A DNA stretch of 64,000 nucleotides from Coriobacteriia bacterium. GTDB taxonomy: Bacteria > Actinomycetota > Coriobacteriia > WRKU01 > WQUG01. Below the pieces are notes generated by a model. It did no database searches. It was given only the letters and a program-made list of their open reading frames with translations, and was not told where the DNA came from. How positions within the stretch are numbered: the first letter of the stretch is position 1; every line of letters starts with the position of its first letter. This document shows positions 57,731 to 62,682 of the stretch, one piece after another. Location of the stretch: contig WRBC01000002.1 of the NCBI GenBank assembly GCA_009779855.1, positions 62,001 to 126,000 on the forward strand, given 5' to 3'. A program made the position numbers and the translations under genes.

Positions 57731-58495
57731 CTACCATGCGCGACCTAGTGTAGCTACGCGTACTTCTTGTGCGCCTGCCTTTAGTAGTGCTTGTGTGGCG
57801 GCTTCTGCTGTTGCGCCTGTGGTGAAAACATCATCAATAAGCAGGATTTTGCGGGGAAGAGGCGAATAATGATTCTGCGTGCTGGCACTGGTGTAGTCTT
57901 TTGCATTTATTTTGTCCATGATGCAGGTAAATTGTAGCGAGACCTCCTTTCGTTGCTTTCGGGAGAGCCCTCTTTGATCATGGTTGTCTAACTGTTTTTG
58001 ACGGACGAGCAGGGATATGGAGGGCAGATTCAGAAGGTGGGCAGAGCTGCACGCAAGCAGTTCCCCGTGATCAAATCCGCGTCGCTTCAGCGCTTCTTTT
58101 GTGGAGGGTATCCAGCAGGCTGCTTCTGCCCACGTCCCCCAGTTGTCTTGGATACACTTTGCTAAAAGAGTCCCGAGTAAACGGGCAAGTCTTCGCTCAT
58201 TCGCATCTTTGTATAGCACGATTGACCGTGCAAGTGAACCATCCAGTATGCCTAGGGAAAGCGCGGCAGTAAAGCTATATTCTGTTTCCCAGCACTCAGT
58301 GCAGGTTAGGGCTCCGTAAGGTCCTGCACATTTAGGACAGGCTTGTTCTTGTAGATAACTTTGTTGAAGGCTCTCTAGACATTGGGAGCACAGGAGGATT
58401 CCCTGTCTCTCGCATCCAGCACAGCGTGTAGGAGCGATGAGCTCCCCCAAAGCCATTCCTATACTTGAGTTTAAAACCCTACCTGCTAACTTCAT
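57731..58495 (-). CDS. comF: ComF-family phosphoribosyltransferase-like protein
   Basis: A 254-residue protein with an N-terminal zinc ribbon (CAGCERQGILLCSQC...CPKCAGPYGALTCTEC, about residues 23-72) and a type I PRTase domain with the PRPP loop ILLIDDVFTTGATAEAA (about 216-232). ComF is needed for DNA uptake in naturally competent bacteria and has other roles elsewhere. Its start is 32 bp from an 11-bp repeat array. Convergent with mtnA, 21 bp apart. Confidence 0.9.
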   Translation of the reverse strand: MKLAGRVLNSSIGMALGELIAPTRCAGCERQGILLCSQCLESLQQSYLQEQACPKCAGPYGALTCTECWETEYSFTAALSLGILDGSLARSIVLYKDANERRLARLLGTLLAKCIQDNWGTWAEAACWIPSTKEALKRRGFDHGELLACSSAHLLNLPSISLLVRQKQLDNHDQRGLSRKQRKEVSLQFTCIMDKINAKDYTSASTQNHYSPLPRKILLIDDVFTTGATAEAATQALLKAGAQEVRVATLGRAW

Positions 58496-58526
58496 GCTTT
58501 TATCCTAGCAAGCGACGATTCGAGCC

Positions 58527-58614
58527 TGATTAAGCTGTCAGTAAGTGTGCGTTAAGTCTTGATTAAAGCAGGATTAAGGCAAGGTTAAACGAGGATTAAG
58601 TCTTGATTCAGGGC
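58527..58614. repeat. Array of eight 11-bp direct repeats (consensus tGATTAAGnnn)
   Basis: Eight consecutive 11-mers from 58527 share a TTAA (or near) core at exact 11-bp spacing: tgattaagctg, tcagtaagtgt, gcgttaagtct, tgattaaagca, ggattaaggca, aggttaaacga, ggattaagtct, tgattcagggc. The core lies at 58530, 58541 (degenerate), 58552, 58563, 58574, 58585, 58596 and 58607 (degenerate). One-helical-turn repeats are the usual target of OmpR/PhoB-type response regulators. Located upstream of comF (minus strand) and of the structured RNA. Confidence 0.7.
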
Positions 58615-58629
58615 GTCTTTAACTATTTC

Positions 58630-58653
58630 AAAGCGGTCGAATTCGACCGCTTT
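58630..58653. promoter_or_regulatory. 24-bp perfect palindrome
   Basis: AAAGCGGTCGAATTCGACCGCTTT is its own reverse complement across all 24 bases. No T-run follows on either strand, so an operator or a small hairpin is more likely than a classical terminator. It lies between the repeat array and the structured RNA. Confidence 0.55.
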
Positions 58654-58699
58654 ACACTATCTTTAATTGGCTTCAAAGGTGATTTCTGTCCAATGAGTG

Positions 58700-58705
58700 T
58701 ATAAT
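58700..58705 (+). promoter_or_regulatory. -10 element (TATAAT) of the structured RNA
   Basis: A perfect TATAAT placed so that transcription would begin at about 58711-58713, which coincides with the first base pairs of the RNA's closing helix. No good -35 is visible at normal spacing, so an activator may be needed. Confidence 0.55.
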
Positions 58706-58711
58706 TGCTCT

Positions 58712-58984
58712 GCCTTCGCGCGGGTCTGTGGTTGCGTTTGTTTTGCTGGGCAAGACAAGTTAGTTCATAGGTAGGTGCGGCCGAAAGAACCCACGTAAGC
58801 ACATCACTCGACAGGAGGATGTGTGAGCATGGCGCACCTTAGGGGTAAGTCGTACCGTCTGCAGTCTGGCATATGTCAGGTAAACGGGCGAGAGGACTAG
58901 TCGTGAGATAGTATCAAGCTAACGTCCCGGTACGCGAGTGTGGGGTCAAAGATCAGGTCAGCCGCGCGAAGGTATTCTTTATTA
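58712..58984 (+). ncRNA. Structured non-coding RNA, candidate raiA-motif RNA
   Basis: An apparently non-coding stretch of about 260-270 nt bounded by an 11-bp closing helix, CCTTCGCGCGG (58713-58723) with CCGCGCGAAGG (58962-58972), followed by ATTCTTTATT. Inner helices are readable: AGGTGCG with CGCACCT, CACATC with GATGTG, and CGTACCG with CGGTACG. A consensus -10 sits just upstream. It does not match tmRNA, RNase P RNA, 6S or SRP RNA by their core motifs. The raiA-motif RNA of Firmicutes and Actinomycetota is, as I recall, often beside raiA or comFC genes; the divergent comF neighbour fits. Confidence 0.55.
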
Positions 58985-59257
58985 CCCTAGCCTGATATCA
59001 GTTTAGTCTGCATTAGCTCAGCCTTCATTCATTATTTAACCTACATCAATTAGCATGCCTGAATCGTTTTGCTTTGTGTTTTCTTGTTGCATAAAATTTT
59101 AGATAAACGCATAAAACTACATATAACAAAATGTGAAATGTATATTTAAGCAAAAAATTGCACTCAAATTAAAATTGTGGAAGAATACTATACCTATGAA
59201 GTAGAAAATAAGGCACAGCGCCATGTTGTGTCATCAGCTGTACGAAAGGTGTGAATC
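58985..59257. other. AT-rich intergenic leader of the amino-acid ABC transporter
   Basis: A strongly AT-rich stretch (notably 59041-59200) with no open frame. It should hold the promoter of the downstream ABC operon, but I could not identify a -35/-10 pair with confidence. GCATAAAA occurs twice nearly (59090-59120). The ribosome site of the next gene is GAAAGGTGTG. Confidence 0.4.
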
Positions 59258-60121
59258 ATGAAAAAGCGTTTACTTATGCTAAGCCTTGCTGCAATCCTTG
59301 TGCTTTCTGCATTTGTTCTTGTGGGATGTAACCAAGAAGAGGAAGCCCCTGACCTGGATGCAGGGTCAGACAGTAATGTTGAGACTCATATCGCCCTTGC
59401 CGATGTGGTTAGCGGGGATGGTTTAACTATAACGGTTGCTACTGAGCCTACGTATCCTCCCTTCCAGTCTAGGGAAGGCGGCGAAGTTGTTGGGTTTGAC
59501 ATTGACCTAGTCAAGGCAATCGCTGAAGAGCTAGGCGCAGAAGTTGAGTTCACTTTCCTTGAGTGGGACGCACTTCTTACAGCACTTAGTGCAGACAGTC
59601 GTGACTTTGATTTTGCTGCAAGCGCTATGACGATTAGACCAGACCGTGCAGAGACAATCCTCTTTTCAGATCCTTACTTTGTGTCTGTCCAGGCTTTAGC
59701 TGTTCCTTCGGATTCAAGTGTAAATTCCATAGCCGATGTAGGTGAAGGCTTTAGGGTTGCCGTGCAAAACGGTACGACAGGACACATCTTCGCTACTGAA
59801 AACCTAGAAGAGAAGGGTGCGGTTGTAAGACCGTATCAAGGCGGTCAGGAATGTTTTCTTGCCCTAGCATCAGGGGAGGTTGATGGCGTTATCATCGACC
59901 TTCCTGTAGCAGTTAACCAGGCTGCGCTGGGTGACTTTGACTTGAAGACTATTTTGATTCCTCAGGCAGACCAAGAGCACTTTGGCCTAGCGTTTGGCAA
60001 GAGCAGAACTGACCTTGCCTATGCAGTTAATGATGCCCTGGCAGCTATTATTGCCGATGGAACCTATGCAGAGATTTATGCACGCTGGATTGATGCAGAC
60101 AACGATCCTGTAATGCCATAG
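59258..60121 (+). CDS. Polar amino-acid ABC transporter substrate-binding lipoprotein
   Basis: A 287-residue lipoprotein with a signal peptide and a lipobox (LVGC, Cys near residue 24). The SBP family 3 fold shows ATEPTYPPFQSREGGEVVGFDIDLVKAIAEELG (about residues 67-100), FDFAASAMTIRPDRAETILFSDPYF and VDGVIIDLPVA. It binds a polar amino acid such as glutamine, arginine or cystine; the exact ligand is unclear. First gene of a three-gene importer operon. Confidence 0.92.
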   Translation: MKKRLLMLSLAAILVLSAFVLVGCNQEEEAPDLDAGSDSNVETHIALADVVSGDGLTITVATEPTYPPFQSREGGEVVGFDIDLVKAIAEELGAEVEFTFLEWDALLTALSADSRDFDFAASAMTIRPDRAETILFSDPYFVSVQALAVPSDSSVNSIADVGEGFRVAVQNGTTGHIFATENLEEKGAVVRPYQGGQECFLALASGEVDGVIIDLPVAVNQAALGDFDLKTILIPQADQEHFGLAFGKSRTDLAYAVNDALAAIIADGTYAEIYARWIDADNDPVMP

Positions 60122-60137
60122 GAGAATACTTCTTACC

Positions 60138-60983
60138 ATGTGGACTAATTTTGTTGAGTGGTGGGAATCCTTCTCTATCCTGCGGGTGTTCTTTTCACCT
60201 ACAGTAGCTATAGAGACGTTTCCCATTGTGTTACAAGGATTTCCCATCACTTTGGTTCTTGGGTTTGTGGGCTTTGCTCTAGCTATTCCCGTTGGACTTG
60301 CTCTGGCGTTCATGAAAATGAGCAAGGTTGCCCCCTTGCGCTGGGTTGCAACTGTTTACGTTGATATTATTAGAGGAACGCCCCTGTTACTGCAGATTCT
60401 TATTATCTACATGGGGCTTCCTCTTATCCCTGCTTTTCAGGCGGCAATGGAGCCCTTTGCGGATGTTTCTGTGCTAGGTGTTCCTTTTTCTGCTTGGTTT
60501 CGCGCTTTCCTGATTTTGTCCGCAAATTCTGCTGCCTATCTGGCAGAAATTTTCAGAGCAGGCATTCAGTCTATTCCAAAAGGTCAAATGGAAGCGGCTA
60601 GATCTTTGGGAATGCGGATTCCGGCAGCCATGGCCTTTGTTATCCTTCCGCAGACAATTAGGCGTATTCTTCCGACCTGTATGTCGGAGTTTATCCTACT
60701 ATTGAAAGATACGGCCCTCTTTGCCATGGTGGCAATGGGTGAAGTTATGTTACAGGCGCGTGTTGAGTCCGCTCGCGTGTTTAATATGACGCCTCTTACG
60801 GTTGCTGCGATATTTTATCTGATTGTGACCATCCCTGCTGGTAGAATGGTTGCTAGGCTAGAAAACAAGTTAGCGGAGCAAGATTCAGGAGCGGCGCAGC
60901 CAGGCAAGCGTAGCCCGCGTCTTAATGTTCCCTCGACTCATGTAGTTAGCCACAGGGAAAATACTATGCAGGACGTTAGGTAA
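60138..60983 (+). CDS. Polar amino-acid ABC transporter permease (HisM/GlnP family)
   Basis: A 281-residue inner-membrane permease with about five helices. The cytoplasmic EAA loop is [19 protein letters not shown] (about residues 144-162), typical of the His/Glu/Gln family, and [18 protein letters not shown] marks the periplasmic-side segment. The C-terminal 40 residues are hydrophilic and longer than usual. It follows the binding protein by 16 bp. Confidence 0.92.
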
Positions 60984-60988
60984 CCGCC

Positions 60989-61729
60989 ATGAGCGAAGCA
61001 ATTGTAAAAATAAGAAATCTCAAAAAAACCTTTGGCAGCGAAGAGGTGCTACACAACATCAATCTTGAAGTTGATAAAGGTGAAGTTGTCTGTGTGCTAG
61101 GACCTTCAGGTAGCGGCAAGTCCACTATGCTGCGCTGCATTAACCTATTAGAGGTGCCCACCTCTGGTGAGGTTTGGGTGAATGATACTCAGGTTAATGC
61201 AAAGGGCACTGACATCAATAAGGCACGCGAACATCTGGGTATGGTTTTCCAGCAGTTCAACCTTTTTCCTCATAAGACTGCACAGGGCAATGTCGAGCTT
61301 GCTTTGCGTAAAGTGCGCAAGATGTCAAAAGAAGAAGCTAGCTCTATCGCCAAAGAGCAATTAGAACGTGTAGGTCTGGCAGAACGTGCAGATTTTTATC
61401 CTAGCCAACTTTCTGGTGGCCAGCAGCAGCGCGTGGCCATCGCACGAGCACTCGCCATGGAGCCTACCGTTATGCTGTTTGATGAAGTTACTTCAGCACT
61501 TGATCCAGAGCTTGTTCGTGATGTTCTTAATGTTATGCGTGATCTTGCGCAGGCAGGCATGACCATGATAGTGGTGACTCACGAAATGGGGTTTGCTCGT
61601 GATGTGGCAGACCGTGTGGTATTTATGGATGGCGGATCAGTTATCGAAGAAGGGTCTCCTGAAGACATCTTTGAAAATCCAAAAAATGAACGTACAAAGG
61701 ACTTCCTGGGTCACTTAAGCGAATCATAG
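60989..61729 (+). CDS. Polar amino-acid ABC transporter ATP-binding protein (GlnQ family)
   Basis: A 246-residue ATPase with Walker [12 protein letters not shown] (about residue 35), Q-loop [10 protein letters not shown], signature [18 protein letters not shown] (about 138-155), Walker [14 protein letters not shown] and H-loop VVTHEM. Completes the importer operon; starts 5 bp after the permease. Confidence 0.95.
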
Positions 61730-61731
61730 TT

Positions 61732-62682
61732 TTGATTTCACCTAACAATAAGCCTGGCAAGTTGAATAAGCCTGAACTTTTAGCACCCGCTGGAAGTATG
61801 GAGGCTTTAAAGCTCGCTATTGACTGTGGGGCGGATGCTATCTACGGCTCTGGGATGAGTTTCGGTTTGCGTTATAATGCAAAGAATTTCTCTCTTACTG
61901 ATTTGCGTAAAGCGGTAGAGTATGCCCATGGTCGGCAACGCCGATTCTACCTTGCGGTCAATGCACTTATTCACGAGTCAGATCTTGCCTCGCTAAAAGA
62001 ATATCTTCTTGCGGCAGGGGAGACGGGCATTGATGCCTTTATTATTTCTGACCTAGGTGCAGCAGTCTTAGCAAGAGAGGCTGCCCCGCATGTTGCGCTG
62101 CACGTTAGTACTCAAGCTAGTGTCGCGAATTCTGCTAGTGCAGAAGCATGGCATGAAATTGGAGCAAGACGCATTATCGCAGCGCGCGAGCTATCCCTGC
62201 GTGAGCTAGCCGAGATGAAGAAGGATATGCCGACTGACATGGAGCTTGAAGTTTTTGTTCATGGGGCGCAGTGTATGGCTGTAAGTGGGCGTTGCATCAT
62301 TAGCAATTATCTTGCACATCGTGATGCAAATAAAGGTCAGTGTGCTCACAGTTGTCGCTGGGATTATCAGTTGGTAGAGAAAAAGCGCCCCAATGAGTAT
62401 CTGCCTGTGATTGAGGAGGATGGTCATACCTCAATCTTTAGCCCCTATGACCTTAATATGATTGAACACCTTGATGACCTTGTCTCTGCAGGGATTGATA
62501 GTTTCAAAATTGAGGGACGAACTAAAGGCGTCAACTATATCTCTACTGTCGTCTCAGCCTATCGCGCAGTCCTGGACGGGGAAGAGGCAAAGCAGTATGT
62601 TGAAGGACTCCGCGCTCAGACCCCGCGTCCCCAGGGAACGGGGTTCTATTATGGCTATCCGCAGCAAAATTATCGTAACTAA
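61732..62682 (+). CDS. U32 family peptidase (TrhP/YegQ-like), short form
   Basis: A 316-residue radical-associated U32 protein. Motifs: KPELLAPAGSMEALKLAIDCGADAIYG near the N-terminus, and FVHGAQCMAVSGRCIIS (about residue 178) with CAHSCRWDY (about 205), the Cys set of the family. It ends at GFYYGYPQQNYRN, near the point where longer members (about 400-450 residues) add a C-terminal domain. Relatives modify tRNA (TrhP hydroxylation) or act as proteases. TTG start at 61732, without a clear ribosome site, 2 bp after the ABC gene. Confidence 0.88.
   Translation: MISPNNKPGKLNKPELLAPAGSMEALKLAIDCGADAIYGSGMSFGLRYNAKNFSLTDLRKAVEYAHGRQRRFYLAVNALIHESDLASLKEYLLAAGETGIDAFIISDLGAAVLAREAAPHVALHVSTQASVANSASAEAWHEIGARRIIAARELSLRELAEMKKDMPTDMELEVFVHGAQCMAVSGRCIISNYLAHRDANKGQCAHSCRWDYQLVEKKRPNEYLPVIEEDGHTSIFSPYDLNMIEHLDDLVSAGIDSFKIEGRTKGVNYISTVVSAYRAVLDGEEAKQYVEGLRAQTPRPQGTGFYYGYPQQNYRN

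Follow-up and report, generated by a model that had tools for sequence, protein, structure and literature searches.

The RNA described here belongs to the raiA family (RF03072). Few bacterial RNAs whose molecular function is still unexplained are as widespread as this one, and members of the family have been studied in Clostridia. There the RNA has been renamed ModT, and phenotypes and complementation in trans were reported for C. difficile (PMC11706538); phenotypes and trans complementation in C. acetobutylicum are cited in the same paper. The effect of C. difficile ModT on sporulation runs via c-di-GMP (PMC11706538), and cryo-EM structures of ModT have been presented (PMC11751092, PMC12286853). 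A comFC gene nearby is reported for 74% of raiA RNAs and a raiA gene for 66%, the former not strictly defining and the latter not defining for the family. An earlier note on the present DNA called the function of the motif still poorly understood, a remark that these phenotypes and structures have in part overtaken but that still holds at the level of molecular function. A comparison made across a whole bacterial class narrows the possibilities.

The window is the entire 64,000-nucleotide stretch of Coriobacteriia DNA that was analysed, and all coordinates refer to it. The Rfam raiA model, RF03072, matched positions 58715-58970 of the + strand over its full length (model positions 1-209), scoring 146 bits (gathering threshold, 101.3; E = 3.4e-36), and no other Rfam family reached E ≤ 1 when the whole of Rfam was compared with positions 58450-59300. 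The region folds at -102.6 kcal/mol (z = -3.33), better than 200 of 200 dinucleotide-preserving shuffles, and is overlapped by no open reading frame of at least 60 aa. Thus, positions 58713-58972 (+) are a structured RNA gene encoding a raiA/ModT non-coding RNA, present in single copy in the source genome (1.54 Mb in 15 contigs, 93% complete). The match, the fold z-score and covariation together place the gene at 58712..58973 (+), with a putative transcript start at ∼58712. Exact-match relatives were mostly Coriobacteriia MAGs (WRBW01, WREJ01, and WQVS01).

The earlier note had proposed a candidate raiA-motif RNA at 58712-58984 with an 11-bp closing helix and no open frame, and had suggested a covariance-model search and a check for covariation among relatives. 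Both analyses bear the proposal out: the raiA match is strong, and all 11 pairs of the closing helix carry compensatory changes. The proposed extent is slightly too long at its 3′ end, the closing helix ending at 58972. The note had also considered that known large housekeeping RNAs do not fit, and indeed raiA is the sole Rfam match at E < 1, which rules out 6S, SRP, tmRNA, and RNase P. A sequence that is foldable by chance is ruled out by the RF03072 match together with covariation in 58 genomes. Nothing was found in favor of either a chance fold or another housekeeping RNA, and the probability left to them is vanishingly small. The RNA is an additional member of an already known family.

To define the secondary structure, the updated model comprising helices P1-P8 and pseudoknots pk-1 and pk-2 (PMC11706538, PMC11751092) was placed on the window, with helix positions read from the published descriptions and the Rfam alignment. 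This model replaced the Rfam pairing of the P3/P4 region because it is reported to fit DMS data better (PMC11706538); the outer ‘<’ helix of the Rfam alignment corresponds to pk-1 of the updated model. All helices lie on the + strand. The closing stem begins with the 11-bp P1a (58713-58723 with 58962-58972), all 11 pairs of which have changed on both sides among the 58 homologous sequences aligned, the window's own included, and it continues through P1b (58726-58728 with 58959-58961) and P1c (58729-58733 with 58951-58955). The optional P2 hairpin (58736..58760) has 11 pairs here, 10 of them with compensatory change, and its length differs among relatives. P3a (58763-58766 with 58787-58790) and P3b (58770-58772 with 58780-58782) flank an A-rich internal loop, and 99-100% of their alignment cells are paired. 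From the P3 loop, AGGUGCG (58773-58779) would pair with CGCACCU (58833-58839) in the pk-loop to form pk-1, seven of seven consecutive Watson-Crick pairs in the window; 94.3% of cells are paired and three pairs covary.

P4 (58791-58794 with 58940-58943) encloses P5, the pk-loop, P6, P7, and P8, and is invariant and hence uninformative. P5 (58800-58805 with 58818-58823) is the weakest helix, with 69.6% of cells paired, a low value owed in part to a poorly aligning loop. P6 (58851-58855 with 58930-58934), P7 (58856-58860 with 58886-58890), and P8 (58894-58897 with 58924-58927) are 98-100% paired and carry compensatory changes. The short pk-2, UG (58830-58831) with CA (58947-58948), is 95.7% paired, and C-G replaces U-A in three sequences. 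Over the whole published pseudoknotted model, 93.0% of 3869 cells were paired, compared with 81.8% in shuffled and 31-46% in slid controls. Both sides have changed in 42 of 70 pairs, and the covariation score of 0.368 compares with 0.173 for shuffled alignments (none of 500 as good) and 0.06-0.12 for slid ones. Unpaired positions are also very highly conserved in the 58-sequence alignment. Accordingly, P1 and P3-P8 are all represented, together with the optional P2, with compensatory variation except in the invariant P4, and covariation in the alignment demonstrates the pseudoknotted secondary structure.

The RNA is nearly universal in the relatives searched: 58 of 60 Coriobacteriia genomes, the window's own included, carry it above the cut-off and in single copy, and it was found in none of 14 control genomes. 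The two Coriobacteriia genomes in which it was not found, G010 and G053, are also without PF02482.

The earlier note had pointed to a perfect -10 box at the predicted 5′ end. This TATAAT (58700..58705, +) ends 7 nt 5′ of the closing helix and is accompanied in this genome by neither a TGn extension nor a clear -35 element. A generic sigma-70 scan did not report the promoter, a matching -35 being absent, and a comparative test of the -10 position was used instead. In 57 of the 58 loci, a TANNNT hexamer precedes the RNA by 3-8 nt, and 47 of these hexamers carry the extended TGn; at positions chosen at random within these loci, the corresponding frequencies are 4.4% and 0.3%. The sole locus without it is that of G040 (L057), where a sequence resembling a transposase-library adaptor, CTCTTATACACATC, stands just upstream of the RNA instead of a promoter region and is probably an assembly artefact. 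The comF (comFC) gene that the note had placed beside the RNA lies divergently at 57731..58495 (-; Pfam PF00156), and, of 58 genomes, 54 have a ComF homologue adjoining the RNA, in plus orientation in 43 and in minus orientation in 11. The -10 hexamer keeps its position whether comFC is co-directional (43 genomes) or divergent (11, the window included). This constancy suggests that the RNA has a start site of its own, and we infer transcription from a dedicated promoter.

Two further elements were observed between comF and the RNA. Approximately 8-9 consecutive 11-bp units of the form TTAAG-N6 occupy 58530-58628, upstream of comF; because this array abuts comF rather than the RNA, it was not counted in the RNA gene. 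Matches to this pattern are in excess in the source genome (30 compared with 5 for the control) and in a congener, G002 (41 compared with 5). In both species such arrays precede yraN-comM-dprA and cpaB-tadZ in the same relative orientation, and others lie near comEA-comEC (short and weak), a prepilin peptidase gene, and a SpaA-like gene, mostly in G002 too. By eye, arrays were also seen before small toxin-antitoxin-like genes at L160, L161, L162, L163, L164, L166, L168, and L172 (G001 and G002), the types being Phd/YefM, RelE/HigB, HicB, and BrnT/BrnA, together with a YhcG-like gene. The arrays look like a candidate operator for a regulon of competence and stress genes; in the competence-operator literature, no title or abstract describing such repeats was found. 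Between the array and the RNA promoter, positions 58630-58653 form a perfect 24-bp palindrome without a spacer, AAAGCGGTCGAA/TTCGACCGCTTT.

Downstream, the next gene encodes an SBP_bac_3 lipoprotein (59258..60121, +; PF00497) that starts 284 nt after the RNA and is followed, within 60138..61729 (+), by an ABC permease (60138-60983) and an ABC ATPase (60989-61729). In relatives, the usual order is comFC - RNA - SBP1 - SBP2 - permease - ATPase - raiA, as in G015, where raiA lies 4.4 kb downstream of the RNA. The solute-binding protein encoded at 59258 is a far better match to the transporter-linked SBP2 of relatives than to SBP1; the window has lost both SBP1 and raiA, and its ATPase gene is followed by one for a U32 peptidase (61732-62682) where many relatives have raiA. 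Shorter arrangements also occur, comFC - RNA - SBP - raiA in family f7 and part of f4, and comFC - RNA - raiA in G044/G056. The gene downstream is neither SBP nor raiA in G012 and G013, and is unrelated in family f3. The RNA is intact when comFC flips and when the downstream gene differs. Across the class, a same-strand solute-binding protein gene, mostly with a lipobox, is next downstream in 54 of 58 genomes, PF00497 being confirmed for the window's protein and for five proximal ones of relatives. These data establish a conserved place for the RNA, with comFC on one side and a solute-binding protein gene on the other; the latter is a near-constant partner in Coriobacteriia and is apparently read from the same promoter.

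In relatives, the raiA gene lies ∼0.5-5.6 kb downstream of the RNA, often behind the ABC-transporter operon. The earlier note had remarked that no raiA gene is adjacent here, and the observation extends further: PF02482 (RaiA) was not found anywhere in the source genome (G000), nor in any of the eight further genomes of its family, all of which keep the RNA. Many assemblies of this family are incomplete, and nine misses out of nine were judged unlikely to arise by chance. PF02482 was likewise not found in family f3 or in the 99%-complete, RNA-bearing genomes G021 and G031. The RNA has therefore outlived the loss of its namesake gene in this genome. Similarly, nine 99%-complete genomes with the RNA (G016, G032, G036, G042, G044, G046, G048, G056, and G058) yielded no GGDEF domain (PF00990), and control of c-di-GMP cannot be the universal role of the RNA. 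Given that the RNA persists without RaiA or without GGDEF, the RaiA hibernation protein cannot be an obligatory partner, and nor can the synthesis of c-di-GMP.

The explanation that we consider probable as a whole is that of a raiA/ModT RNA that has its own promoter, is read through into the transporter operon, is released at P1, and acts in trans. Transcription would start at the RNA's own promoter and usually continue into the downstream operon, and cleavage or termination at the base of P1 would yield a stable RNA. By analogy with Clostridia, the released, self-contained domain may act in trans; it would be present in large amounts during growth and assist cells in leaving the exponential phase, probably as the RNA component of a ribonucleoprotein. 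A role in trans has been demonstrated in Clostridia only, and part of it is linked to sporulation. What counts against this explanation is the fixed place of the RNA ∼30 nt before the SBP gene in most relatives, which resembles a cis-acting leader. The start codon mostly follows P1 by 24-36 nt, and in 36 genomes it falls within 60 nt, as judged by automatic start choice; a separate count gave 40 loci with a close same-strand downstream ORF of any kind. An intrinsic terminator would not fit into such a spacer, and the RNA is therefore either processed or a leader here. A riboswitch-like leader of the solute-binding lipoprotein/amino-acid ABC transporter operon would also agree with Rfam, which types the family as ‘Cis-reg; riboswitch’, and descent from an ancient riboswitch is left open in PMC11706538. 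However, the downstream Shine-Dalgarno sequence pairs less with the RNA (mean of 0.08) than with shuffled RNA (0.32), as would fit a self-contained RNA domain, and inspection of the relatives' loci by eye revealed no obvious alternative helix conserved within the spacer. No expression platform, whether Shine-Dalgarno sequestration or a terminator switch, was thus found, the spacer being mostly too short for a terminator. Moreover, the RNA has stayed the same in the lineage of the window, where the spacer has widened to 180-284 nt and the proximal SBP has been lost. An unrelated gene lies downstream in f3 and G044/G056, and complementation in trans has been published for Clostridia. A cis role in Coriobacteriia is accordingly regarded as unlikely, although it deserves some weight.

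A reading in which the RNA has two roles in Coriobacteriia, being the leader of the SBP-lipoprotein transcript and also sensing or setting how much of the transported amino acid is supplied, appears rather doubtful. If true, it would connect the published role of ModT in growth transitions with nutrient uptake rather than with the RaiA protein or c-di-GMP. It has also been raised that the RNA is a ribozyme or an RNA-processing RNA that acts on other RNAs (PMC11706538, PMC11751092). The very high conservation of unpaired positions would suit such a catalyst, as would the compact pseudoknotted fold suggested by covariation here and by cryo-EM in the published work, but no activity is reported in either paper, and we hold this to be improbable. 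The trans-acting RNA released from a read-through transcript is retained as the preferred explanation.

The added value of this analysis is comparative evidence on the context of the RNA and on the partners that it can do without. In most relatives, it resembles riboswitch-type 5′ leaders in its same-strand position ∼30 nt upstream of a gene with no space for a terminator; it differs from them in that no expression platform was found and in that neither the spacing nor the downstream gene is conserved in the window's lineage. The RNA takes its name from the gene for the ribosome hibernation factor RaiA/HPF (PF02482), which many relatives have downstream of it; given that this gene was not found in the present genome and family and that the RNA remains, the two are separable. 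In comparison with ModT of C. difficile and C. acetobutylicum (RF03072), the RNA has the same P1-P8 helices, both pseudoknots, a full-length covariance match, and a comFC neighbor. It differs from C. difficile ModT in possessing the P2 stem, and from the Clostridia RNAs in that a raiA gene was not found in the genome and that an SBP transporter operon lies downstream, a setting in which its role may be proposed by analogy with ModT.
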